From positions 1 through 64,000 of the forward strand of contig CACMMX010000009.1 in the NCBI GenBank assembly GCA_902614915.1: a DNA stretch of 64,000 nt, in the 5' to 3' direction. Under the pieces are notes generated by a model, which saw nothing but the letters and a program-made list of their open reading frames with translations, was not told the DNA's origin and made no database searches. A program made the position numbers and the translations under genes. The stretch is from an uncultured Cryomorphaceae bacterium. Lineage in GTDB: Bacteria; Bacteroidota; Bacteroidia; Flavobacteriales; Schleiferiaceae. Positions 1-11,174 of the stretch are shown here, one piece after another. Within the stretch, counting starts at the first letter, position 1, and each line of letters starts with the position of its first letter.

Positions 1-740
1 TTCAACGTGAAGGTATCCCCGACGGCATAGCTGTCACACTCAAGGCAACCTCTTGAATTAAAAAAAGCTCCATTGGGATTGTTTGGATCCACTACCGTGA
101 AAGAAACCTCTTTACCATAAGAAATACCAATATCATTTTCAGCGTATGCCCTTGCATAATAAGTGCCCAAGGATAGTTGTACGCTATCTAACTGAAAAAC
201 ACCTTTTCCAGTAGAATCATCTTGCAAGTAATTATCGTTTATTGTTGGATTAGAAAAACTACTCCAACAAACACCTCTTACAGTATTTACATCATTGTCA
301 GTAAATGTTACTTCGCCACGAAACACTACTGAGCTGTCTTTTATAATAGGATTTAGAGTACTGACTTGAGGAAGTTGAATAGTGCCGAGAGCGAAACTCA
401 CTTCATTGCCGTAAGACTTCCCTACTTGATTCTCAGCAAATGCGCGGACATAATAAGTAGTGTTGGTTTGGATTTGAGAAAATATATCATAACTAAATGA
501 CCCCATTCCCGTTAGCGTATCTAAGATGAAATTATCGTTGGTGGTTGGATTTGGGACAGTACTCCAGCAAAAGCCTCTTGTTGTATTATTATCCCCTCCC
601 GTAAGGGTTACTTCACCAGCTAAAATGGCCGTTGAATCTGTGAGTGTAACATTGGAGGTGACGACTTGAGGAGGATCGGTAATATTTTTACCACAACCAA
701 AAAGCAATAGAACAGGTACTACAAATAATAACTTCTTCAT
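1..740 (-). CDS. Partial FN3-like repeat lipoprotein (C-terminus outside window)
   Basis: The reading frame starts at the ATG at 738-740 and runs off the left edge, so only about 246 residues are visible. It begins with a short signal peptide and a lipobox ending LLLFGC, with the lipidated Cys near residue 17, so export and outer-membrane anchoring are expected. The visible body has two tandem repeats of about 100 residues, each with RGFCWS/RGVCWS, NPTxNDN, a YYxRAxAEN segment and an SYGxEVSF end. This pattern is typical of fibronectin-type-III-like repeats in Bacteroidota surface proteins. Its leader is nearly identical to that of the LamG-like gene at 5899-7164. The function is unknown. Confidence 0.75.
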   Translation of the reverse strand, partial: MKKLLFVVPVLLLFGCGKNITDPPQVVTSNVTLTDSTAILAGEVTLTGGDNNTTRGFCWSTVPNPTTNDNFILDTLTGMGSFSYDIFSQIQTNTTYYVRAFAENQVGKSYGNEVSFALGTIQLPQVSTLNPIIKDSSVVFRGEVTFTDNDVNTVRGVCWSSFSNPTINDNYLQDDSTGKGVFQLDSVQLSLGTYYARAYAENDIGISYGKEVSFTVVDPNNPNGAFFNSRGCLECDSYAVGDTFTL

Positions 741-850
741 CTCAAATCAATTTGAGAACGAAATTACGAAAGTGTCACAAAGAGTGACACATTGAGTAAG
801 AAACAACCCCTAAACACTAAAATCAAAACACTAACTTAGAAACAATATTA
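733..850 (-). repeat. Dispersed repeat copy A (leader of the FN3-like lipoprotein)
   Basis: This stretch is nearly identical to 7157-7275 and, over about 80 bases, to 8797-8880. It covers the first codons of the gene at 1-740, a palindrome just upstream of its ATG (741-755), the inverted repeat GTGTCAC-N5-GTGACAC (772-790) and an AT-rich tail. The similarity stops sharply near 850, where the other copies continue with a linker and a terminator hairpin. Confidence 0.85.
772..790. promoter_or_regulatory. Perfect inverted repeat in leader A
   Basis: Seven-base arms GTGTCAC and GTGACAC flank a 5-base spacer. The same element is unchanged in the repeat copies at 7196-7214 and 8806-8824. It lies about 32 bases upstream of the ATG at 738-740, so it could be an operator or an mRNA hairpin. 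No regulator can be named. Confidence 0.5.
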
Positions 851-1066
851 AAAGGTTTCGACTATGAACTCTCGATACCTTTCGAGGGAGATACCATCGT
901 ACATATACCTCATGTTGATCTCGCAGGTAAACTTCAATTGAAAGAACCTCAGCGCATAATTGAAGATGATAGAGGTACTAGTCGATTCTACTACTGGAAT
1001 GGATGGCGAATTGCGTATCACATCCACATTGGACAGCGAAGTGGAACTACGATATCTCGACTGTAA
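845..1066 (+). pseudogene. 3' remnant of an unidentified coding sequence
   Basis: An open frame without a start codon runs from about 845 to the TAA at 1064-1066, giving about 70 residues with segments such as YELSIPFEGD and FYYWNGWRIAYH. It begins exactly where repeat copy A loses similarity to the other copies, so it looks like the C-terminus of a gene cut by a rearrangement. I do not recognise the family. Together with copy A it fills the 410 bases between the genes at 740 and 1150. Confidence 0.35.
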
Positions 1067-1076
1067 TGCCTAAAAC

Positions 1077-1095
1077 TGTTCATACTTTGTGAACA
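1077..1095. promoter_or_regulatory. Inverted repeat upstream of the methyltransferase gene
   Basis: TGTTCA and TGAACA arms surround a 7-base spacer, 55 bases before the methyltransferase ATG. Its position suits an operator, but no controller (C-protein) gene is visible next to this restriction system. Confidence 0.35.
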
Positions 1096-1149
1096 TGGTA
1101 TCAAAAACATGGAATCACTGCAGTAACGAAACAGATATCTTTACACCTC

Positions 1150-2427
1150 ATGAAACTAAATGTAGTAGAACTTTTCGCCGGAGTTGGCGGCTTTAGATTA
1201 GGCTTAGAAGGAATTGATGGAAAGTCCAGTACATCTGGATATTCTCGAAAATTGAATACCCCTGTACCTTTCCAAATTGTATACAGTAACCAATTTGAAC
1301 CTTCAACGAAAAGGCAACATGCCAATGAGGTTTACGAAGAACGATTTGGTAAAAATGGTCACTTTGGAAAGTCTATAGAGGACTTGAGTGCAAATAGAAT
1401 TGAAACTCACCTCAAGGAAAACAATATTGAAGGATTCGTTGATGTACTTGTTGGTGGATTTCCTTGTCAAGACTATTCAGTTGCTACTACTTTAAGAAAT
1501 TCTAAAGGGCTAAAGGGCGATAAAGGGATTCTCTGGTTTCAGATAGAAAGACTCTTGTCAGAATTTGAAGTGAAACCAAAGTTCCTCATACTGGAAAACG
1601 TAGACAGGCTCTTGAAAAGCCCAGCAAAACAGAGGGGAAGAGACTTCGCTGTAATGTTGAAACATCTTGAAGCCCTCGGATATATTGTTGAGTGGAAAGT
1701 CATTAACTCCGCTGAGTGGGGGTTTCCACAGCGCAGGAAGCGCGTCTTCATATTGGCATACCATATGGATTCTGTTTCGAAGGAATACCTTGGACTGCTC
1801 GACATAGCCTTCCCTTCTACCCTAGATACTGAAGCACATACGTTCGAATTAGAGGGTGACGAAGCAACTATTAGTAGGTCCTTTGGAGTCGATAAAAAAA
1901 TCTCAGACTTCAAAATTGATGGATACATGGTTGACGGAACTGTGTTCACACAGAAATGCAAGTACGCTGAGAAAAGAGGAAAAGTCCTTGGAGATATAAT
2001 TGAAAGGGACCTTAAGAAAATACCATCAGAGTTCATCCTGTCTGCAGAAGACAACTCGATTTTCGAAACGCTGAAAGGTGGTGGTACTAAAATTCGAACT
2101 ACAAGTACAGGACATACCTACAAGTACTCTGAAGGGTCGATGTCATACCCTGACAGTTTAGATAAACCCTCACGCACAATCATCACTGGGGAAGGGGGAA
2201 AGACTCCTTCTAGATTCAAGCATGTGATTCAACATGCAAAAGTGCGTAGAAGACTTATGCCTCTCGAATTAGAACGATTAAATGGCTTTCCAGACGGTTG
2301 GACTGAAGGAGATTCTTTAACCGATACAAAGAGAGCATTCTTTATGGGTAATGCTCTTGTGGTAGGCATAGTTGAAATGATTGGCGCTGTTGTATCGAAT
2401 TGGTGGAAGGAAAATTCAAAGCACTGA
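1150..2427 (+). CDS. DNA (cytosine-5-)-methyltransferase of a type II R-M system
   Basis: This protein transfers a methyl group from AdoMet to C5 of cytosine in its target site and protects host DNA from the partner nuclease. In its 425 residues I see motif I near residues 7-19 (ELFAGVGGFRLGL, AdoMet binding), motif IV with the catalytic Pro-Cys-Gln (Cys about 106), motif VI ENV (about 149-151), motif VIII QRRKR (about 194-198), motif IX with ERLNGFPDGW, and motif X with GNALVVGIV. The length is normal for the family. The gene converges tail to tail, 6 bases apart, with the predicted endonuclease gene at 2434-3039. The target sequence cannot be read from the protein. Confidence 0.95.
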   Translation: MKLNVVELFAGVGGFRLGLEGIDGKSSTSGYSRKLNTPVPFQIVYSNQFEPSTKRQHANEVYEERFGKNGHFGKSIEDLSANRIETHLKENNIEGFVDVLVGGFPCQDYSVATTLRNSKGLKGDKGILWFQIERLLSEFEVKPKFLILENVDRLLKSPAKQRGRDFAVMLKHLEALGYIVEWKVINSAEWGFPQRRKRVFILAYHMDSVSKEYLGLLDIAFPSTLDTEAHTFELEGDEATISRSFGVDKKISDFKIDGYMVDGTVFTQKCKYAEKRGKVLGDIIERDLKKIPSEFILSAEDNSIFETLKGGGTKIRTTSTGHTYKYSEGSMSYPDSLDKPSRTIITGEGGKTPSRFKHVIQHAKVRRRLMPLELERLNGFPDGWTEGDSLTDTKRAFFMGNALVVGIVEMIGAVVSNWWKENSKH

Positions 2428-2433
2428 TTAATC

Positions 2434-3039
2434 CTATGAGTTAATCATTCTAATGGTTTTATCGTTTTTGTCAACTTCAAAGGTCATAGGAGGTTTAAGG
2501 CCAATTATGATTAACGGACAGGTAATGAAGTTTCGATATGGCTTTAGGTAAGTCAAGAATTTCTCGTAGGTACCTATAGAACCGTCAAAGTTACCTGCCT
2601 TCTTCATACGTTTTGTTGCTACAATTATTACTCCAACAGAGGTTTGCAGTGATTTGGATACGTGATTTAATTCACTTGCTAATACCGGCTTCATGATGTT
2701 GTGTGCAATTGCCTCCGCATGGTTAAAGGCGACCTCAACAGAAAATTCCCCTTTCGCAAAATCGAGTCTCCACCTAGTACGTTCCTTGTGGTACGAAGGA
2801 TCGCTAAAAATTGGGGATTCTGTAGCCCAGCCAATCTCTTCAAGTTTTACTTTCAATAGCGTATTTATTGCCTTTGAAATACTCTTAGTTGAATTGCCTC
2901 TATTTGAATTGTATTCAGCAATGATTTCGTTCTCACTTATACCCTTTATTACACCCAGTAACGCATGAAAATCTTCGCTGTACTCGTCTCCACTAACAAC
3001 TGAAAATGCATGCCTGTGCTCTGCTAATTCAAACTCCAT
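2434..3039 (-). CDS. Probable type II restriction endonuclease, BglII/BstYI-like
   Basis: This 201-residue protein is encoded tail to tail with the C5 methyltransferase, which is the classic layout of a type II restriction pair. Around residues 89-110 it has WRLDFAKGEFSVEVAF, with Asp93 and Glu102 nine residues apart, followed by hydrophobic residues and a tract reading NIMKPVLASEL. This spacing matches the Asp/Glu catalytic pair of the BglII/BstYI branch of PD-(D/E)XK nucleases. The usual Gln two residues after the Glu is Ala here (104), which is odd. The family call is inferred from motif spacing and gene context; a wholly unrelated nuclease fold is possible. Confidence 0.6.
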   Translation of the reverse strand: MEFELAEHRHAFSVVSGDEYSEDFHALLGVIKGISENEIIAEYNSNRGNSTKSISKAINTLLKVKLEEIGWATESPIFSDPSYHKERTRWRLDFAKGEFSVEVAFNHAEAIAHNIMKPVLASELNHVSKSLQTSVGVIIVATKRMKKAGNFDGSIGTYEKFLTYLKPYRNFITCPLIIIGLKPPMTFEVDKNDKTIRMINS

Positions 3040-3087
3040 TTTGCTAAGTTTTGTAAAACTGAAATTACTCTATCAAACACTTAAATC

Positions 3088-3101
3088 CAACAGCGCTGTT
3101 G
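3088..3101. promoter_or_regulatory. 14-bp perfect palindrome upstream of the endonuclease gene
   Basis: CAACAGCGCTGTTG is self-complementary and sits 48 bases upstream of the endonuclease ATG. It is a plausible binding site for a dimeric regulator of the nuclease gene. No regulator gene is visible nearby. Confidence 0.35.
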
Positions 3102-3187
3102 CTTAGTTGCATCACTCACAATAAGACATAGTTATCCCTTGACACGATGCGCACGGAATTGGATTACTATTAGTGAGTGAATTCTAA

Positions 3188-3388
3188 GTGAATGTTTCGC
3201 TGTTGTTGGAGAGAGATCAAACTCTTTACAGCTTTAGACATACGGGAGCAATAGACGTATTTGAGAAAACAGGCTCTCTAATCAAACTACAGCAAGTAAT
3301 GGGACACAGCGATATGAAAGTATCGCTTACCTATTTAAGGGGATTAGAAGTGAAGCAGTTGGATGTAGAGGACTTGCCTGAGTTGTAG
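3188..3388 (+). pseudogene. Tyrosine recombinase (phage integrase) C-terminal fragment
   Basis: The frame encodes 66 residues that cover only the last catalytic boxes of a tyrosine recombinase: YSFRHTG (box II Arg), LQQVMGHSD (His) and SLTYLRGL (nucleophile Tyr). The N-terminal core-binding domain and the first catalytic Arg are missing, so it cannot act alone. Recognisable integrase sequence begins near 3210, and the nominal start is not a real gene start. It ends 37 bases before the lipoprotein gene at 3426. A related middle segment of an integrase lies on the other strand at about 9405-9625. Confidence 0.8.
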
Positions 3389-3425
3389 ATTTCTCTACCT
3401 TTAGTAGAAACAATAAATCAAACCA

Positions 3426-4094
3426 ATGAAAAATTTCTTTGCCACGGCTGCCATATGCAGTTTATTATTTTCTTGTTCAAATAGTAATTCAACATCAGAC
3501 GATTTAGGTCAACTTGATAGTTTATCTATTTACAAAAGAGATAGTTTAAAGCAATACACTTTGCTACAAGACAGCATCAAGGAATCTGAAATCATACAGA
3601 AAAGTAAAGTTTCGTATGAAAAACTTACTGAATTAAGGTCGCGCTATATCGGTCTTTTATATGAATACCCAAAATCCACTGATTTTATTGCAAATAATGG
3701 TTATCCGGAGACTCTTGACGGAACTGACAACAACACTTGGGTTGTCTACTTTCCAAAAGGAGACATAACGGTTGTAATGAACAAACAAACCAATCTATTC
3801 ACAAATATTTGCTTTGGTAAAAATGAAAGTTTAAAAACTGATGTTAGTAATAATCTTTCCAAGTTTATAGGGAAACGAATGACTTACGACTCTTATACAA
3901 AGAATATAAGCTCAATAAAATATGGAGCTCCCGAAAAATTAGGGTCACAAAATTGCATTAACAAGAAATGCGTTCAATACTATCCTAACGGACAGTTTAC
4001 AACGGTCGCATTTTATGAGTTCCCAGACGATGGAGACTATGTAACTTTATTACGAATTACACCTTATAAAGATAAATACTTGGGTTCATTTTAA
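3426..4094 (+). CDS. Orphan lipoprotein
   Basis: The 222-residue product starts with a signal peptide and lipobox LLFSC (Cys about 17) followed by a Ser/Asn-rich linker, so it should be a cell-envelope lipoprotein. Residues about 35-75 are charged and helical, with possible coiled coil. The rest is mixed alpha/beta with repeated Tyr/Lys and a Cys pair (CINKKC). I do not recognise a family. It directly follows an integrase tail and precedes a second integrase tail, which suggests it came in as cargo of a recombinase-borne insertion. Confidence 0.7.
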   Translation: MKNFFATAAICSLLFSCSNSNSTSDDLGQLDSLSIYKRDSLKQYTLLQDSIKESEIIQKSKVSYEKLTELRSRYIGLLYEYPKSTDFIANNGYPETLDGTDNNTWVVYFPKGDITVVMNKQTNLFTNICFGKNESLKTDVSNNLSKFIGKRMTYDSYTKNISSIKYGAPEKLGSQNCINKKCVQYYPNGQFTTVAFYEFPDDGDYVTLLRITPYKDKYLGSF

Positions 4095-4201
4095 AATCAA
4101 ATTCCGATGTTATCTATGACCTTAAGATGTCTTTTACAATGCCTCTCATATTTCTAACGAGCTGGAATAACATACTTGAAGAAATAAAGAATCAGTGGTT
4201 A

Positions 4202-4246
4202 GAAGTGCAACAGTTGGATGTTGAGGATTTAGCTAACTTGGAATAA
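4202..4246 (+). pseudogene. Second integrase 3' tail remnant
   Basis: This short segment encodes EVQQLDVEDLANLE and a stop. It closely matches the last codons of the integrase fragment at 3349-3388 (EVKQLDVEDLPEL and stop). It lies 12 bases upstream of the next lipoprotein gene, as the first tail lies 37 bases upstream of its own. It is a second, more eroded copy of a recombinase gene end. Confidence 0.65.
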
Positions 4247-4258
4247 ATTACATAGAAG

Positions 4259-4894
4259 ATGAAAAAATTAATTTTCTCATTATGCCTGTTGGTATTTATA
4301 GCATCTTGCTCCGTCACAATTCCATTACAGACTAACCTGAGTGAGGCCACTATGTTAATGGCTAAAAACAAAGATATCAATGTGACTTATGATTTAATAT
4401 CGGAGGTTCCAAATGGCTACATTACATATTACAGTGTGATGAAAAACGGAAAAGAACAGAGGTATGACGAATCTTACAAATACGAAAGTGCTAAGGCTTT
4501 TGGGAAGGTTTGGAGTTCTTACTTTCAGAGTAAGTTTAATAACTACTCTAAAAATCAAATGAAGGTAGAAGTGGTTATGCAGCGCTTAGAACTAAGACAA
4601 AAATCGTCAACCTCAGTTGGATTTGAAATATTAACAGGTAATTCTAAAATGACCGTTGAAGCGGAAGCATCATTTTATGTAAAAGTTGACTATCGTGGTA
4701 AGACACTTCAAAAAGATATTAAGGTAAATGTTTCAGATTATAACGAATCACAAACTGTGAGAATCGGCAATAATACCTTCACATCGACACAAACGAATCC
4801 AACTCAGCAAAAAGCCATTTTACTTCAAAATTGTTTGAATCGAGCAGTGATTGAATTTGATAATTTTATTTCAAGTACAATAGAAGCTGACTAA
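4259..4894 (+). CDS. Orphan lipoprotein
   Basis: The product has 211 residues with a signal peptide and lipobox VFIASC (Cys about 17), so it is probably anchored in the outer membrane. The mature part alternates short beta strands with a central tract containing KMTVEAEASFYVKVDY and a Thr/Gln-rich segment, and ends with a helix. It loosely resembles small envelope lipoproteins of the YajG/DUF4136 type, but I cannot assign it. It follows the second integrase tail by 12 bases. A perfect 11-bp hairpin lies 56 bases downstream. Confidence 0.7.
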   Translation: MKKLIFSLCLLVFIASCSVTIPLQTNLSEATMLMAKNKDINVTYDLISEVPNGYITYYSVMKNGKEQRYDESYKYESAKAFGKVWSSYFQSKFNNYSKNQMKVEVVMQRLELRQKSSTSVGFEILTGNSKMTVEAEASFYVKVDYRGKTLQKDIKVNVSDYNESQTVRIGNNTFTSTQTNPTQQKAILLQNCLNRAVIEFDNFISSTIEAD

Positions 4895-4949
4895 GAGGAT
4901 TAGAATAAAAGCAAAAGAATCTTATTCATAGGCTTTATTTTAAAAATCC

Positions 4950-4980
4950 ACTAGTCCTTGGCCTCGAGACAAGGACTAGT
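4950..4980. repeat. Perfect 11-bp inverted repeat
   Basis: ACTAGTCCTTG and its complement flank a 9-base loop. It lies 56 bases after the lipoprotein stop at 4894. It lacks a following run of T, so it is a weak candidate for an intrinsic terminator and may be part of the hairpin array. Confidence 0.6.
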
Positions 4981-5047
4981 ATTAAGGTTAAGTAACAATG
5001 TTTTTGAGGGTATTAATGAAAAGACCTCCTAAATCTTAACTTATTTA

Positions 5048-5131
5048 AACTTCACTTTCTAAGTAGGCTAGCTGCCTACTTAGATTAACTGAATAATACT
5101 AAGTAATACAAGTATTAAATAATGTGAAGTT
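5048..5131. other. Nested inverted repeats forming a possible three-way junction
   Basis: Outer arms AACTTCAC and GTGAAGTT (8 bp) enclose a hairpin at 5058-5084 (TCTAAGTAGGC with its exact complement) and a second hairpin at 5094-5117 (TAATACT with AGTATTA). All stems are perfect. The arrangement could be a structured RNA or a folded single-strand recombination site; the sequence alone does not decide. Confidence 0.45.
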
Positions 5132-5230
5132 ATAACCTCTTTTGCCATTAATGCAAAAGTCTGACACCATCGTTTTCCCACCGTTATTAACGATACCTAT
5201 CCATTTTAATCTTAACTACAAGGCTTATAT

Positions 5231-5288
5231 AACATCAGCTAAGGCAGTGTAGGTAAAGAAAAAACATCCCTAAGTGAGATGCTTTTTT
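5231..5288 (-). repeat. Dispersed repeat copy D (linker plus terminator only)
   Basis: This segment matches 8904-8960, which adjoins tRNA-Ala, and partly 7293-7347. It contains the shared linker CAGCTAAGGCAGTGTAGG and the hairpin CATCCCTAAGTGAGATG followed by T residues. On the minus strand it would terminate transcription of the gene at 5341-5739. The palindromic leader part of the longer copies is missing. Confidence 0.75.
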
Positions 5289-5340
5289 ATGGACCTCTCG
5301 GTCATTATTTCGAACTTTTTTAGTAAATAATGAGGTGAGT

Positions 5341-5739
5341 TTAAATAATGTTTTCTTCTCTTCTTCGCTTTTTTATGAAATTGATTCCACAGGCTAGTTT
5401 ACTGGCAGTTTTAGATTCGTGATCTACCACTCTCCAAAATGGAGTAATATTTTTTTCTCCATTAAGAAAATTTTCATAAGCAGCCTCTGAGACTATTCTT
5501 AAAAATATTCCTGTTGTTACTGGACAGGTTGTATCAGCATTATATGTTAGTGCTATATCTTTTCTTAGGGTTTTAATGTTAACATCTATACCTTTTGGAA
5601 TTTGATTTATATACTCGTCAATGATCTTAGGTGTAGCAATTAACATATTTTGCCCAACTTTCATATCTGAAAAATTTTTATCTAATTTCTTAACAACAGA
5701 AGACCTATTAATATTTAGCTTTTCTCTCCAGCTTTTCAT
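5341..5739 (-). CDS. Alkyltransferase-like (MGMT-fold) protein, tentative
   Basis: The start is set at the ATG at 5737-5739. An upstream in-frame Met at 5761-5763 would run the gene into a terminator palindrome. The product has about 132 residues, with a short N-terminal helix, then MLIATPKIIDEYI, ADTTCPVTTG, FLRIVSEAAYENF and TPFWRVVD. The order of a helix-turn-helix-like tract and a Pro-x-x-Arg-Val-Val motif recalls O6-alkylguanine transferases, but the PCHR Cys is replaced (FWRV). That would suit a non-catalytic alkyltransferase-like DNA-binding protein. This is inference from motif shape; it may be an unrelated conserved hypothetical protein. Confidence 0.45.
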   Translation of the reverse strand: MKSWREKLNINRSSVVKKLDKNFSDMKVGQNMLIATPKIIDEYINQIPKGIDVNIKTLRKDIALTYNADTTCPVTTGIFLRIVSEAAYENFLNGEKNITPFWRVVDHESKTASKLACGINFIKKRRREENII

Positions 5740-5755
5740 AAATACTAAAATAACA

Positions 5756-5780
5756 AAACCCACTCAATTGAGTGGGTTTC
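5756..5780 (-). terminator. Terminator palindrome downstream of the tRNA-Met fragment
   Basis: AAACCCACTCAA and its exact complement form a 24-base palindrome just after the tRNA 3' end, followed on the minus strand by a T-rich stretch. It looks like the original rho-independent terminator of the tRNA. Confidence 0.6.
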
Positions 5781-5784
5781 TTTT

Positions 5785-5852
5785 TGGTGGGCCCACCAGG
5801 GCTCGAACCTGGGACCACCTGATTATGAGTCAGGTGCTCTAGCCAACTGCTC
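5785..5852 (-). pseudogene. 5'-truncated tRNA-Met(CAT) copy
   Basis: On the minus strand the sequence has a full anticodon arm (CCTGA, loop CTCATAA with anticodon CAT, TCAGG), a full T arm (CCAGG, TTCGAGC, CCTGG), the 3' acceptor strand TGGGCCC, discriminator A and an encoded CCA. The 5' acceptor strand and the first D-stem strand are absent: similarity to a normal tRNA begins at CAGTTGG in the D loop. It cannot fold into a working tRNA. Such 3'-only copies are typical scars of integrases that use tRNA 3' ends as attachment sites. Confidence 0.75.
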
Positions 5853-5898
5853 AACAATTATTTATATTGATTAGCCGGTCTTCCTTTAAAAACCTTGT

Positions 5899-7164
5899 CT
5901 AATTCTTAATTATAAGTTTTCTAACCTCTTTAGAATCGGTTTTGATCACTAAGACATATTTACCTTGCCTTAAATGACTAACATCAATCTGCCCATCGGA
6001 AATCCCCTGAAGGAATAGTCTTCCTAGCATATCGATTATTTCGAATTTAAAATTATCAATCCCCTCGACCATTAAAATACCGTTTGTGGGGTTTGGCCTA
6101 ATTACTGTTCGAAGATCATTATCATTAAGACCAATGTTGTCAATAACAGTCAATAAGGCTATATCCGTAGTGTCCTTGGCACAGGAATTTACAATGCACC
6201 GGTAACCAAAACCGTTCATCGCTGTAGTTATACCATTCAAGAATAATGAATCGGTATTTGAACCTGAGTAAATTCCTAAGTTTGAGATATCACTCCATCC
6301 GCTACCATTATTTTGTTGCCATTGAAAAGTCGCAGAACTATCACTATGAGATGCTACAAAATAAGCTATTCCGGGAATTGAATTAAATGAATTTGATAAA
6401 GGTTGTTGAATTATGGAATCACTACAAAGCGGAATTTCGTTATAAATATTGTTTACCTCAAGCGAGTCTAATGCTCTTGACCAGATAGCAATTTCATCAA
6501 TATCACCATTAAAAAATTCTGGTAGCCCTTCATTAATCCCGTTTCGACCGAAACTTAAATCAGCGGCGACATCAATAGCCGCTATACTGAAATAATCAAT
6601 TTTTTCTAATAAGCCATTTCTATAAAATTTTACAGTATCAGAATGAATTGTAATCGTCCATACTTCCCACTGATTAGTAGTTATTTGTGTATTGGAATAC
6701 TTATAATCATTTGCAGACGGATTATTACTCCTTCTTCCGGAGAAAATTTCTTTCTCAGCATAATTTTCATAGCATATGGACATATTATAAGGCCAATAAC
6801 CTCCACTTCGTTTGTTTAAAATCGTTTGGTGGAAACTAGAACCATTAAAACCTTCTGACCTGAAAATAGCATGCATCGTTAAGTCACCAACTATAGCTAG
6901 GTCAGAATTGTGCGGCACCGAAATGAAATCATCGATACCATCGAAATGGTATGCTTGATTCATTATGCCATTTCTATCTGTAGATAAAGTTGCACCATAA
7001 ATACTTCCGTTGAAACCATTACTGCTAGCATCATCAGCATTTCCTTCAAAAGAATAATATGCTACCAATGAATCCGTGGGAATAAAATTTGGAATGGTTT
7101 GAGCAGATGCAATGGTTATAAAAAAGAAAACAAATAAGGTTAATGTTAAGGAGGAATTCTTCAT
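5899..7164 (-). CDS. LamG-like T9SS type A surface protein
   Basis: The 421-residue product has a Sec signal peptide (about 1-21, ending ASAQ), a LamG/concanavalin-like jelly-roll domain (about 30-245, with LVAYYSFEGNADDASSNGFNG and YHFDGIDDFISV), an Ig-like stretch containing FQWQQNNGSGW (about 255-340), and a C-terminal T9SS type A sorting domain (about 345-421, with RPNPTNGIL, IIDMLGR and the LRQGKYVLVI end). It should pass the inner membrane by Sec and the outer membrane by T9SS and then sit on the surface or be released. The LamG part may bind sugars. Its leader is a copy of the dispersed repeat, shared with the lipoprotein at 1-740. Confidence 0.85.
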   Translation of the reverse strand: MKNSSLTLTLFVFFFITIASAQTIPNFIPTDSLVAYYSFEGNADDASSNGFNGSIYGATLSTDRNGIMNQAYHFDGIDDFISVPHNSDLAIVGDLTMHAIFRSEGFNGSSFHQTILNKRSGGYWPYNMSICYENYAEKEIFSGRRSNNPSANDYKYSNTQITTNQWEVWTITIHSDTVKFYRNGLLEKIDYFSIAAIDVAADLSFGRNGINEGLPEFFNGDIDEIAIWSRALDSLEVNNIYNEIPLCSDSIIQQPLSNSFNSIPGIAYFVASHSDSSATFQWQQNNGSGWSDISNLGIYSGSNTDSLFLNGITTAMNGFGYRCIVNSCAKDTTDIALLTVIDNIGLNDNDLRTVIRPNPTNGILMVEGIDNFKFEIIDMLGRLFLQGISDGQIDVSHLRQGKYVLVIKTDSKEVRKLIIKN

Positions 7165-7347
7165 TTCAAATCAATTTGAAAACGAAAATACGAAAGTGTC
7201 ACAAAGAGTGACACATTGAGTAAAAAACAACCGCTAAACCCTAAAATCAATACACTATCTTAGAAACAATATTAACCAGACACTTTACAAGTTAAACACC
7301 AGCTAAGGCGGTGTAGAAAAAAAGCACCAGTAAAACTGATGCTTTTA
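7157..7347 (-). repeat. Dispersed repeat copy B (longest copy)
   Basis: This copy holds all parts in minus-strand order: terminator hairpin (7321-7343), linker with CAGCTAAGGC, AT-rich tract, GTGTCAC-N5-GTGACAC, the palindrome next to the ATG, and the first codons of the LamG-like gene. Compared with copy A, the ATG-proximal palindrome has changed at both outer positions (C/G in A, T/A in B), so pairing is kept. Confidence 0.85.
7196..7214. promoter_or_regulatory. Perfect inverted repeat in leader B
   Basis: The arms GTGTCAC and GTGACAC with a 5-base spacer are identical to those in copies A and C. It lies about 32 bases upstream of the LamG-like gene ATG, so it could be a shared operator or mRNA structure for surface-protein genes. 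Confidence 0.5.
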
Positions 7348-7383
7348 TTGCTCCCCTTGCTAGAATAACCTTAACAATGAAAT

Positions 7384-7722
7384 ATGAAAGACTTTCTCGA
7401 AAAGAATTGGGTCAAACTCTATTTTGTAGCGGGAAGTTTGTTAGCATACAGGTATTCTTGGCCAATATTTTTTAATGAATGGGAAGAGTGGCTTGCTGAT
7501 GAAGGCTTAATAAATACCATTCTTTTGGGTTTAGGTTTTTTTGTTGCTTTGCCTGTGGTGATTTCCTATGGCTTAATGGTTGTCAGTCTGATGTTAATTC
7601 CTCTACTTGTATTTATGTCAATTGCTAATGATAATAGAGATATAGAATCAATTATGGCACTTATCTGGGTTGCAATTGGAACTTTATGTGTCCTTTTTGG
7701 AGTATTTTTTAATGGTGTTTAG
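7384..7722 (+). CDS. Small integral membrane protein
   Basis: The product has 112 residues, with a Trp- and Tyr-rich N-terminus (about 1-35) that may include one membrane segment, and strongly hydrophobic stretches at about 42-62, 62-82 and 90-111. Acidic residues sit in the loop at about 28-40. It is probably an inner-membrane protein with three or four passes. No family is recognised. It is the only plus-strand gene between repeat copies B and C and has no close partner. Confidence 0.6.
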   Translation: MKDFLEKNWVKLYFVAGSLLAYRYSWPIFFNEWEEWLADEGLINTILLGLGFFVALPVVISYGLMVVSLMLIPLLVFMSIANDNRDIESIMALIWVAIGTLCVLFGVFFNGV

Positions 7723-7748
7723 CGTTCAACGGCAATCTACTTATCTTC

Positions 7749-8111
7749 CTAATATTGAATTGATGAGTTAATCACTTGAATACTCGACTCTTCCCAATTA
7801 ACTATCACTGTTCCTTCAAAATCTTCTTTTCTGATTCTGTAACTGTACAGCGTTTCCTCAGATAGGTTTATTCCAAACTGAACACCTCTATCTGCTGTTT
7901 TATCTAATAGTTCAAAAACCTCTTCAACCTTATCTTCACCGTAAGCTTTCATAAACGTAGCCTCGTAAGGATTTAGTTCTTTGAATAGAATAGGTTCTAC
8001 TGTCTTAACAGCTAAAGTATCGAAGTCAATATTTTGTAATGCGTTTGGAATTTGCTGAGCAACTGCTTGACTCCCCAAGCTTATTGCTAAAATGACCATT
8101 AACTTTTTCAT
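7749..8111 (-). CDS. Small exported protein
   Basis: The 120-residue product has a clear Sec signal peptide (about 1-19, ending AVAQ) and a mature part that starts QIPNALQNID. The centre contains an acidic helix (EDKVEEVFELLDK), and the end is beta-rich. It has no Cys and no lipobox, so it is probably periplasmic. It is 6 bases from the gene at 8118-8459, whose mature protein starts in the same way (QEIPEILNGFD), so the two may be distant paralogues expressed together. The function is unknown. Confidence 0.65.
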   Translation of the reverse strand: MKKLMVILAISLGSQAVAQQIPNALQNIDFDTLAVKTVEPILFKELNPYEATFMKAYGEDKVEEVFELLDKTADRGVQFGINLSEETLYSYRIRKEDFEGTVIVNWEESSIQVINSSIQY

Positions 8112-8117
8112 AGTTAT

Positions 8118-8459
8118 TTAGAGTTCCCAAAAGAGAACAACTTTTTTATTCTGCGCTGTTGTGCTTATTAGGTATTCGTAATCTTGATCCACTCTCGTTT
8201 CAAATATTACCCACTCTTCTAATCTTCCACTACCTTTATCGAGTTCTTCTTCCACAAAGGCTGTATTGTCTTTTACCAGTTGTAAAAAGTCATCAAACCC
8301 TTCGTGTTGATAATCTACTAGGTAAGCGGTAAAGTCAACCCCATCATTTGTGGTTAGGTATTCTACTTGATAATCGAATCCGTTCAAAATTTCAGGTATT
8401 TCTTGTCCGAATAAGAAATTACCTATTAGTAGAAAAAAGAAGGTGAAAACAGTTTTCAT
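8118..8459 (-). CDS. Small exported protein
   Basis: The product has 113 residues with a signal peptide (about 1-18, ending LFGQ) and a mature N-terminus QEIPEILNGFD that resembles its downstream neighbour. An acidic helical centre (FDDFLQLVKDNTAF) is followed by beta-rich sequence. It is first in a likely two-gene operon with the gene at 7749-8111. No family is recognised. Confidence 0.65.
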   Translation of the reverse strand: MKTVFTFFFLLIGNFLFGQEIPEILNGFDYQVEYLTTNDGVDFTAYLVDYQHEGFDDFLQLVKDNTAFVEEELDKGSGRLEEWVIFETRVDQDYEYLISTTAQNKKVVLFWEL

Positions 8460-8796
8460 TGGATTGATAAATTAGAGGTCATTATAATATCAACGAATAC
8501 TATTTGGACATATTGTTTCGTTATTACTTTGCTTGATATTTTTGACTCTAGTGATTTCGAAGCAGACGGAAAATCAGAGAGATTAGGAGATAAATTAGAT
8601 AATGAAAATTAGTTATGAAATCACTAACAAAAGAGCAATTAACTCAAGATTTATTGACTCGGAGAGCACACAATAGATTCTTTCAAATGGTAGACAAAGT
8701 GCCATACAACAACGACAAGAAGGGACAGGCCTTTATAAAAAGATCATCTCAGCGATAAACAGAGATGCAAAGAATCTTCTAGACAACCTAACTATA
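8460..8796. other. Gene-poor stretch with coding remnants
   Basis: Two short plus-strand fragments are visible. A C-terminal tail without a start, ending at the TAG at 8610-8612, encodes about 26 or more residues including FDSSDFEADGK. A 47-codon frame lies at 8615-8758. Both look like ends of disrupted genes placed between the exported-protein pair and repeat copy C. I see no RNA gene or strong promoter here. Confidence 0.4.
8615..8758 (+). pseudogene. Short 47-codon frame, probable gene remnant
   Basis: The frame starts at ATG 8615 and encodes MKSLTKEQLTQDLL followed by a basic tail, ending at TAA 8756-8758. The opening resembles the first residues of some reverse transcriptases and accessory proteins, but it is too short to assign. 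It is probably the 5' end of a deleted or frameshifted gene. Confidence 0.3.
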
Positions 8797-8960
8797 AATA
8801 CGAAAGTGTCACAAAGAGTGACACATTGAGTAAGAAACAACCCTTAAACACTAAAATCAATACACTATCTTAGAAACAATATTAACCAGACACTTTGCAA
8901 GTTAAACACCAGCTAAGGCAGTATAGGTAAAGAAAAAAGCATCCCTAAGTGAGATGCTTC
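8797..8960 (-). repeat. Dispersed repeat copy C (adjoining tRNA-Ala)
   Basis: This copy carries the tRNA-Ala terminator hairpin, the linker, the AT-rich tract and GTGTCAC-N5-GTGACAC (8806-8824), but no start codon or gene follows on the minus strand. Over the first 80 bases it is nearly identical to copies A and B, and over the last 55 to copy D. It shows the module in its probable original place, directly behind the tRNA. Confidence 0.85.
8932..8960 (-). terminator. Rho-independent terminator of tRNA-Ala
   Basis: On the minus strand AAGCATC (8953-8959) pairs with GATGCTT (8937-8943) around a 9-base loop and is followed by a run of T. It lies 6 bases after the tRNA-Ala 3' end. Confidence 0.75.
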
Positions 8961-8965
8961 TAATG

Positions 8966-9039
8966 TGGAGAAGATGGGATTCGAACCCACGACCTCTTGA
9001 CTGCCAGTCAAGCGCTCTAGCCAACTGAGCTACATCCCC
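8966..9039 (-). tRNA. tRNA-Ala(GGC)
   Basis: The minus strand folds as a cloverleaf: acceptor GGGGATG/CTTCTCC with the G3-U70 pair that identifies alanine tRNAs, D arm GCTC...GAGC, anticodon arm CTTGA-CTGGCAG-TCAAG with anticodon GGC, and T arm GTGGG-TTCGAAT-CCCAT. There is one U-U mismatch in the acceptor stem (positions 6 and 67). The 3' CCA is not encoded. A terminator follows directly. It marks the right part of the accessory island. Confidence 0.93.
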
Positions 9040-9615
9040 AAATCATTAATTAGTTCATTTCTAAGCTCTTACTGGTTCTTTACCAGTATTATCATCAAAG
9101 TGAACGGGGCAAATTTAACTAAATACACATTCAGCTGGCAGTTTACTGACAGTAAAAAGACAGTTAATTTGACTCATGCTCAAAAACCTCATTTAAACAA
9201 CTTTGCATTAGCTGTTCTATTTGGGTTTGGCTGGTTTCTATTTGTTGCTCTAGCTCATCACATAATGTCATGAGGGAGTTTACTTGTTCTACTATGGATT
9301 TTTGTTCATCATATGGGGGTAATGGGCACATTAAGGCTTTTAATGTAGTTGCATTAACATTTGGTTGACCTGTACCCTTAGAACCTGCTATAAGCTGTAT
9401 AGTGTTTGGTTGTGTTCAAGTAAGTCTGTCTGCTTCTTGTAATGTGACCATCGATTCTTGAAATAATCTTGATGGTATTCCTTATGTTTTCTTGAAAACA
9501 GATTTAATGATAATTCCATATCTGAATACCGCTTTACAAGCTCCCTCTGTACAAAAGAGGGTACTGGAACTATTCTGTTCTTTTTAGATTTTACTCTATT
9601 CCCATTTAAATTGCC
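9040..9615. other. Mosaic intergenic stretch with hsdS and integrase fragments
   Basis: No intact gene is present. The stretch holds a small hairpin at 9070-9088, an inverted repeat TTTACTG/CAGTAAA at 9142-9156, an hsdS C-terminal fragment (9164 to about 9412) and an integrase middle fragment (about 9405-9625), both on the minus strand. The fragments meet head to tail near 9405-9412. Confidence 0.7.
9164..9412 (-). pseudogene. hsdS: Type I restriction specificity subunit (HsdS) C-terminal fragment
   Basis: The minus-strand frame encodes IQLIAGSKGTGQPNVN, CPLPPYDEQKSIVEQV and a coiled-coil tail up to the stop at 9164-9166, about 80 residues in all. This is the typical end of an HsdS target-recognition domain followed by its conserved spacer helix (PLPPxxEQxxIV). 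The rest of the gene and the hsdM and hsdR genes are absent here. It joins integrase sequence at about 9405-9412, so the remnant arose by recombination. Confidence 0.75.
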
Positions 9616-9625
9616 GTGACCGAGT
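9405..9625 (-). pseudogene. Tyrosine recombinase middle fragment
   Basis: The minus-strand frame encodes about 70 residues including GNRVKSKKNRIVPVPSF, WSHYKKQTDLLEH and ends at QTLYS. This covers the beta-hairpin with the catalytic Lys and the helices before box II of a tyrosine recombinase. The sequence stops exactly where the fragment at 3210-3388 would continue (QTLYSFRHTG). The two share the short DNA word TACAGCTT at the break but differ elsewhere, so they derive from two related integrases. Confidence 0.7.
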
Positions 9626-9801
9626 TTAGCTTATTGTCTATTTCTTGTGATAAAAGGGAATGTGTTGAACATAATTGCAACGGAGCGATACCTCAATATT
9701 ATCAACCAGTTTGCGGTTGTAATAATGTTACTTACAGTAACCCGGAAGAAGCAGAATGTCACGGGATTATACAATATCGTATCGGCGAATGTGACAAATG
9801 A
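9616..9801 (+). CDS. Kazal-like domain lipoprotein, probably 5'-truncated
   Basis: The 61-codon frame can only start at GTG 9616. It encodes LLSISCDKRE, which looks like the end of a lipoprotein signal peptide with its Cys, then a Kazal-type pattern of six Cys with PVCGCNNVTYSNPEEAECHG and a terminal GEC. Kazal domains inhibit serine proteases. Bacterial lipoproteins of this kind normally have about ten more hydrophobic residues before the lipobox; these seem to be lost where integrase sequence (minus strand) overlaps the 5' end. It may therefore be a pseudogene. Confidence 0.55.
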   Translation: MTEFSLLSISCDKRECVEHNCNGAIPQYYQPVCGCNNVTYSNPEEAECHGIIQYRIGECDK

Positions 9802-9851: not shown

Positions 9852-11174
9852 CTAACTTCTGGGATTAGGAAGCGCTTCGTAGAGTAGTCGATTCTTAGAT
9901 TTTTCTTTTTTTCTTTCCTTCTTCTGTTTAAGGGATTTACTCTCATGGCTAGACTTAGCTGGTTTTGCCAAATCTGTTTTTTTAATGCTTTGCACTTTCC
10001 GACGTTTGCTTTTTCGCTCAGGAGAACGCCATTTCGGACCTATACCAATAGATTTTGGCGGCTGATCTTTTTGTAATTCTCTATCAATCAATCGCTCAAT
10101 TTTTGAGAATTTAAACATATCATCTTGAGATATAAGGGTTACCGCCATTCCCTCTGTTTTCGCTCTTGCTGTTCGGCCAATCCTATGAACATAATCCTCT
10201 GCATCTCCCGGGACATCGTAGTTTATCACAAGGTCTATTCCCTTAATGTCAATCCCGCGAGACATCACATCAGTCGCAACCATAATGCGCGTCTTACCAC
10301 TTCGAAAATCTCGTAAAGCTTCCTCACGAGCCTCCTGTTCATAGTCTGAGCTAATACCTTGACACGAATACCCTTTTTGTTTGAGCTTCCGCGCAAGGCG
10401 TTCTACTTTCTTTTTTGTGGAACAAAAGATTATTATGGCATTAAAGTCGTCTTTATCTCCTAACACATGCTGAACAAGTGACACTTTTTGCTCCTCATGC
10501 GCCATTATGACCTTTTGAGTCACGCCTTCTGCTGGTTTTGAAATAGCGACTGAAATTTCCTCCGGATTCTTCAATATTTGCTTAGCAAGCTGTCTGATTT
10601 TAGTCGCCATTGTAGCAGAAAACATAAGGCTTTGACGCTTATCAGGCAACGTCTTAATAATCTTAATAATATCATCGTAAAAGCCTATGTCCAGCATTCG
10701 GTCGGCTTCATCTAAAATCAAATGCTTCACAGTATCAAATTTCACATACCCACGAGCTATATGAGCAAGAAGTCTACCAGGCGTTGCAACAATAATATCA
10801 GCACCGCCTTTCAAAGCATCTGCCTCACCTTCCCAACTTACGCCGTCTCCACCGCCGTAGACAGCATAGCAAGATGCGTTTGTAAAATAGGCAATCCCTT
10901 GGATTTGCTGTTCAATCTGGACAGCCAACTCCCTTGTTGGACATAAAATTAAAACCTGAACGCCATCGCTCTGTTCCTCTGCAACCTGATTCAATGTTGG
11001 CAATACAAAGGCAGCTGTCTTACCGGTACCTGTTTGAGCACAGCCAATTAAGTCTTTACCTTCAAGTATAGTTGGTATAGCCTTTGCTTGAATCTCCGTG
11101 GCTTCCTCAAAATTCATGTAGGAAAGCGCATCTAGTAGCGTTTCGTTTAGGCCAAAATCCGTGAATTTCTTCAT
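9852..11174 (-). CDS. DEAD-box ATP-dependent RNA helicase
   Basis: This protein unwinds structured RNA with ATP, probably in ribosome assembly or mRNA turnover. In its 440 residues I see the Q-motif region (about 20-30), motif I AQTGTGKT (46-53), PTRELA (79-84), TPGRLL, DEAD (155-158), SAT (186-188), and the C-terminal RecA domain with ATDVMSRGID and HRIGRTAR. The last about 65 residues are rich in Lys/Arg, like RhlE-type RNA-binding tails. It is the last gene of a likely dxs-yceI-helicase transcript and starts 4 bases after the yceI-like stop. Confidence 0.93.
   Translation of the reverse strand: MKKFTDFGLNETLLDALSYMNFEEATEIQAKAIPTILEGKDLIGCAQTGTGKTAAFVLPTLNQVAEEQSDGVQVLILCPTRELAVQIEQQIQGIAYFTNASCYAVYGGGDGVSWEGEADALKGGADIIVATPGRLLAHIARGYVKFDTVKHLILDEADRMLDIGFYDDIIKIIKTLPDKRQSLMFSATMATKIRQLAKQILKNPEEISVAISKPAEGVTQKVIMAHEEQKVSLVQHVLGDKDDFNAIIIFCSTKKKVERLARKLKQKGYSCQGISSDYEQEAREEALRDFRSGKTRIMVATDVMSRGIDIKGIDLVINYDVPGDAEDYVHRIGRTARAKTEGMAVTLISQDDMFKFSKIERLIDRELQKDQPPKSIGIGPKWRSPERKSKRRKVQSIKKTDLAKPAKSSHESKSLKQKKERKKEKSKNRLLYEALPNPRS

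Follow-up and report, generated by a model that had tools for sequence, protein, structure and literature searches.

A tRNA-Ala island with a possible integron-like gene-collecting platform at the 3´ end of an integrase gene

Integrons are the textbook gene-collecting platform of bacteria and consist of an integrase and an array of cassettes. Other systems combine some of the same parts. In the Xer-dependent pdif modules of plasmids, cargo lies between short sites of about 28 bp that are used by the host XerC/XerD, and in the accretion of ICEs and CIMEs, elements stack at one attachment site with left-over ends. Genomic islands that target tRNA genes encode a tyrosine recombinase, integrate in the tRNA gene, leave a restored tRNA and a displaced piece, and stack at hot spots (PMC4383910; PMC10872708). 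Tycheposons are briefly described as a tRNA at the border, a tyrosine recombinase and cargo, 4–200 kb in size (PMC10872708), and are named as satellites in a further paper (PMC11389934).

The window analysed here covers the initial 64 kb of contig C9, part of a draft genome of 54 contigs and 1.65 Mb (G000). It opens within an island that is cut at the window start, the first base of the contig, and the other end of the island is found on contig C15. The integration target is an intact tRNA-Ala(GGC) gene on the minus strand (8965..9039; ARAGORN), identical at the orthologous locus in G008, G010, G011 and G017 and a hot spot common to relatives. On its 5´ side lie a decayed integrase fragment (9367..9612, minus strand; aa 245–327, 44% identity, E 6e-15), probably the remnant of an older element, and a gene recognised from its sequence as a DEAD-box-type helicase (9852..11174, minus strand), a conserved flank that was used to locate the orthologous locus in relatives. 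The cargo of the island includes a restriction-modification pair (1150-3039) in which the genes for a C5 cytosine methylase (1150-2427, plus strand; PF00145, E 8e-54) and a BglII-type restriction enzyme (2434-3039, minus strand; PF09195, E 1e-12) face each other, as well as a LamG-domain protein with a type IX secretion tail (5899..7164, minus strand; PF13385, E 3e-13; PF18962, E 4e-9). A tRNA piece with a CAU anticodon (5788..5852, minus strand; RF00005, 30.4 bits) begins in the D-loop, without the 5´ part, and has its own terminator; it appears to be the displaced target of an older insertion. No conjugation genes were noticed in the island.

The original prediction for this DNA described four copies of a terminator-linker-leader repeat on one strand, and all four (A to D) are present, on the minus strand. 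Read in the direction of tRNA-Ala, the full module comprises a tRNA 3´ terminus, a hairpin terminator, a linker with CTATACTGCCTTAGCTGGTG, about 100 nt and the palindrome GTGTCACTCTTTGTGACAC, followed in some copies by a start codon. Copy C (8797..8964), the putative right end of an element, lies behind tRNA-Ala with its terminator at about 8936-8960, linker at about 8907-8932 and palindrome at 8806-8824. Copy B (7157..7356) has a tRNA-Asn-type 3´ remnant (7348-7356), an Asn-type terminator, the linker, the palindrome (7196-7214) and the start codon of the LamG gene, which is started by this leader. Copy D (5231..5295) consists of linker and terminator preceded by a short CAU-tRNA-like 3´ remnant (5289-5295), a few bases only and the weakest of the set. 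Copy A (733..851) has the leader arm only; its palindrome lies at 772-790, and it supplies the start codon for the lipoprotein gene at 3-740. In pairwise comparison, B matches C at 93% over 136 nt and A at 93% over 119 nt (E 4e-46), whereas D matches C at 95% over 54 nt (E 2e-17), in the terminator-linker part only. This similarity is far beyond chance, which is excluded. A reading frame without a 5´ end (850-1066; KGFDYELSIPFEGDTIVH...) adjoins copy A where the repeat stops, and copy A thus probably marks a deletion or rearrangement joint.

A search of the genome for further copies, as proposed with the original prediction, enlarges the family. Eight more full or partial copies occur in the same draft genome, at C6:38954-39110 directly behind tRNA-Asn and at C6:35958, C15:37143, C15:38647, C15:40596, C33:734, C36:850 and C37:2316; the repeat is without a match in the 59 related genomes searched, of which 24 belong to the same genus. 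Six of the seven aligned terminator-linker ends come after a tRNA 3´ terminus: intact tRNA-Ala at C, intact tRNA-Asn at C6:38954, a His/Ala chimera at C15:37143, a decayed CAU tRNA on C37, an Asn-type 3´ end with Asn-type terminator at B (one mismatch in about 38 nt) and, the weakest case, a very short CAU-like end at D. In the seventh, C6:35958, no tRNA end was recognisable before the terminator-linker. Since both the tRNA end and the terminator of B are of the Asn type, B would be the end of an element formerly at tRNA-Asn. More generally, C, B and D appear to be the tRNA-proximal (right) ends of integrative elements, each made up of a tRNA 3´ end, terminator and linker. An acceptor mismatch in tRNA-Ala was considered as a sign of a donated 3´ end and dropped, the tRNA being identical in relatives.

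The leader has been read differently: the original prediction took the modules for expression cassettes of surface proteins, such that the terminator-linker-leader module would itself be a mobile or recombining unit spreading expression signals. At least four copies start different exported proteins, and A and C15:38647 (L011 around 8650) even share, beyond leader and start codon, the first signal-peptide codons (MKKLLFVVPV), the mature proteins being unrelated. Against this, the terminator-linker ends track tRNA 3´ termini, copy C has a leader without a surface gene, and no leader-bounded insertion was found. Moreover, the palindrome behaves as a feature of the elements. It has seven sites in the genome at up to three mismatches, every one in these islands (0 for the reversed-pattern control), once immediately before the start codon of an integrase gene; this distribution also rules it out as the site of a genome-wide regulator. 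Direct repeats of at least 8 nt are found just before the start codon in 31 of 76 integrase genes vs 4 of 243 control genes, and such paired short repeats are a trait of the integrase family. We find the expression-unit reading highly improbable. The modules are more plausibly element ends, and the leader with its palindrome is best read as an arm site of the integrase or an operator site of the element.

Comparison of the locus in close relatives, located by the helicase flank, finds tRNA-Ala empty, 5´-filled or 3´-filled. The gene lies 167 bp from the helicase in G010, with no trace of an integrase on either side, and is intact with 2 to 12 kb on its 5´ side in G011, G017, G008, G003, G001 and G013. 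The insert of G000 is on the 3´ side, and at its far end on contig C15 a displaced tRNA-Ala 3´ end lies near conserved MbnP-like and peroxidase genes; inspection of the far end of a 3´ insertion in G011 recognised no tRNA piece. With the orthologous locus empty in one genome, other genomes differing in the side and the length of the insert, and the repeat ending at tRNA 3´ termini, the stepwise growth behind tRNA-Ala proposed in the original prediction is upheld. The best explanation of the island is a stack of small integrative elements that target tRNA genes. Such an element would read, in order, broken tRNA piece, short paired repeats, tyrosine integrase gene, cargo, right end and complete tRNA. 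The integrase would insert it inside a tRNA gene, in the D-arm or anticodon arm; the right end would restore the tRNA, and the displaced piece would remain beside the integrase gene. C, B and D would date from consecutive insertions, the elements having made use of tRNA-Asn and a CAU tRNA as well, and copy A would retain only the inner leader arm. A restored tRNA at one end, a displaced piece at the other and an integrase inside are all found, the integrase being represented in the window itself by remnants only.

Intact members of the integrase family are found elsewhere. On contig C36 (L013:1-2167), two divergent integrase genes have a single tRNA piece between their start codons (CAU anticodon, D-loop to T-arm), an arrangement that appears to reflect two nested insertions. 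The intact C36 integrase has the features of a tyrosine recombinase with an added N-terminal domain: its model (pLDDT 85.8) matches the folds of Tn1549 Int, IntI4, XerA and lambda Int, R223, R319, H320, H342 and the C-terminal Y351 are invariant, and PF00589 is matched with E 2e-15 in a relative and with 3e-5, below the cut-off, in the C36 copy. It is not of the integron type, the best score to TIGR02249 being 46.5 bits vs a cut-off of 265. A phage or plasmid vehicle was dismissed for lack of close integrase relatives, with phages at 22–23% identity only, plasmids giving none and IMG/VR nine weak loci. Relatives occur at 194 loci, nearly all labelled Bacteroidota, many of them marine and single-cell genomes among them. 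Among the best 80 of these loci, tRNA sequence was found within 350 nt upstream of 70 of the 71 integrases that could be tested, vs 0 of 176 random windows. Most loci have a fragment, with breaks at nt 40–43 (5´ pieces) or nt 13–31 (3´ pieces), and some a complete or nearly complete tRNA; several loci have a complete tRNA of the same kind at the far end.

The original account of the island passed over a second set of repeats, in which the 3´ tail of the integrase gene occurs as a solitary site. Site 1 (3173..3388, plus strand; conserved core about 3346-3385) has 81% amino acid identity to integrase residues 300-369, and site 2 (4199..4246, plus strand), a member of repeat family D6, is the core only. 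Each is followed within about 40 nt by a gene on the same strand for a lipoprotein of no Pfam family (3426..4094 and 4259..4894, respectively). In relatives, tails form arrays of up to six, in one direction and typically 0.25 to 1.7 kb apart. The last 40 codons of a locus's own integrase are repeated in 28 of the 80 loci as 46 extra copies, 45 of them on the integrase strand; about two thirds of the loci are without an extra tail, many contigs being cut. Three control segments of 40 codons from elsewhere in the integrase recur in 1, 2 and 1 of the 80 loci, where more of the integrase gene is repeated. Solitary tails number 31 in 14 loci, plus 37 in 21 other loci. For another, unrelated integrase of this genome, a search of 60 genomes gave no tail-only hits. 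On the right, conservation stops at the stop codon; leftward it fades after 40 to 180 nt, typically 65 to 120. The tail site is without clear inverted repeats. It was considered as a folded, attC-like site and rejected, no single-strand fold being detected on either strand (z-scores +0.7 to +1.8), and as a mimic of the tRNA D-arm, a likeness striking in a few cases that, over 73 integrases, is no closer than in synonymously recoded versions (p 0.27).

Solitary tails could in principle be debris. If whole elements stacked at the tRNA and deletions removed most of the older integrases, a 3´ end might be left by chance or for transcription of the cargo, and no second site would be needed. Accretion at the tRNA is indeed evident, a decayed remnant of an integrase gene is present (window 9367-9612), and the tails differ in how far upstream they reach. 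However, tails have been retained in 46 instances and other parts of the integrase gene hardly ever, and the arrays of relatives were not found to contain tRNA pieces of the kind that stacked elements should have between them. Nor is it expected that tails be common to integrases with dissimilar bodies: G002 and G001a are 33% identical in the integrase body and 90% in tail DNA, synonymous sites included. Among seven integrases of one genus, codon identity at shared residues, as a fraction, rises from 0.36-0.45 in the first 300 codons to 0.73 in codons 331-340 and 0.85 over the last eight, with 0.46-0.60 between. Finally, left and right flanks reassort at the tail, as set out below. Accretion and decay as the whole explanation is in our judgement unlikely.

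Three species compared at the tRNA-Ala locus have different cassettes, with the joints falling within the tail. On its left, junction c1/end of G009 agrees with c1/c2 in G001 (0.94), and on its right with the array ends in G001 and G013 (0.95); junction c2/end of G013 has the left flank of c2/c3 in G001 (0.89), against 0.54-0.74 for flanks that do not correspond. Pairs that share the right flank only clearly exceed unrelated pairs from about -8 on, and pairs that share the left flank only do so most clearly up to -9; on this gradient, the switch lies some 5-12 nt ahead of the stop codon, the junction and gradient tests comprising few, non-independent pairs (7 and 12). Units also recur between loci: one cassette is present in both the tRNA-Ala and the tRNA-Met array of one genome (86.7% over 752 bp), related cassettes are found in different species (83.5% over 789 bp), and a cassette on contig C6 of G000 is 91% identical to one in G002 over 197 bp, up to the contig end. 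From such comparisons we infer recombination at the tail, and the integrase-gene tails, rather than the repeats of the original prediction, appear to be where relatives gain, lose and reassort cassettes. One agent could be RecA, with tails as ordinary short homologies between which cargo is shuffled and which become homogenised. The tails share 65-120 bp that are often 85-95% identical, the reassortment is of the expected kind, and homologous recombination between tails could account for part of it. As a full account it is quite improbable: several sites have only about 40 bp in common at 80-95% identity and would be poor RecA substrates, and neither the narrow switch point nor the origin of solitary tails and their ending at the integrase stop codon is explained.

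Considering the observed anatomy, tRNA breakpoints, hot spot, tail copies, tail sharing and flank reassortment, we think it likely that the island is a stack of tRNA-targeting elements in which the integrase tail serves as a second recombination site for cargo cassettes. The last approximately 65-120 bp of the integrase gene would constitute this site, and units of one or a few genes with a tail copy would line up behind the integrase. A cassette would thus consist of cargo followed downstream by a copy of the integrase tail, which gives it the form of an integron cassette, and recombination near the stop codon of the integrase would allow cassettes to be acquired, lost and swapped. The integrase itself may recombine tail with tail via circular cargo-plus-tail units. 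Because an incoming cassette would bring the last codons and the stop, the integrase reading frame would survive each event. We lean, with some reserve, towards a broader proposal, a gene-cassette platform apart from integrons: a tyrosine integrase that hops between tRNA genes would use its own gene end as cassette attachment site, each captured cassette would rewrite the last integrase codons, and cassettes would circulate between tRNA loci and species of marine Bacteroidota.

The cargo is small and varied and includes secreted proteins, AHSA1-type, scramblase-like and hydrolase proteins and restriction-modification systems. It faces either way, and each unit probably has its own promoter. 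A small ORF with a Kazal-like Cys pattern (PVCGCNNVTYSNPEEAECHG) is found at 9616-9801, between tRNA-Ala and the helicase, and by eye a related sequence is cargo right behind tail sites in L010 and L100. Lipoprotein genes with a leader nearby lie at the ends of contigs C9, C15 and C33 (window 3-740; L011:10680-11249; L012:1-696), at least two of them with BspA-like repeats (DVSNVTNM), and these contigs may join inside one island. Most of the genomes compared are drafts, with many contigs ending in arrays; arrays are seen in single-cell genomes too. Contigs of many relatives (G006, G010, G011, G012, G018 and others) end within arrays or in or near a tRNA, and islands of this kind are consequently under-represented in draft genomes.

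If the proposal is correct, a second, unrelated platform would explain the gain of single genes, such as those for secreted proteins and restriction systems, by abundant marine Bacteroidetes with small genomes, as well as the breaks of draft genomes at tRNA genes. A recombination site embedded in the gene of the recombinase itself is also a directly testable design. Full-text literature searches, of limited scope and no proof of priority, returned no description of integrase-tail cassette arrays, and the collecting of genes at the integrase tail looks like an undescribed, integron-like mechanism that is widespread in marine Bacteroidetes.

The elements show the usual hallmarks of tRNA-targeting islands (PMC4383910) and agree with the short description of tycheposons, the only one used in the comparison, in having a tRNA border, a tyrosine recombinase and cargo (PMC10872708). 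They differ from both in being compact (about 3-12 kb) and in the repetition of the integrase 3´ tail between cargo genes. The accretion of ICEs and CIMEs is similar in the stacking at one target with left-over ends, but the island here has no noticed conjugation genes and has a second repeated site inside the integrase gene. Like pdif modules, the cassettes would be cargo modules between short sites of a tyrosine recombinase; here, in contrast, the element's own integrase gene would provide the site with its coding 3´ end. Integrons share the general layout of a tyrosine recombinase followed by an array of small mobile units, each of cargo and site, with the sites in one direction (45 of 46 tails here). 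Yet the integrase here is of another type, the place of a separate attI is taken by the 3´ end of the integrase gene as first site, no single-strand fold of the site is found, the cargo faces either way, and the whole platform resides inside an element that targets tRNA genes.
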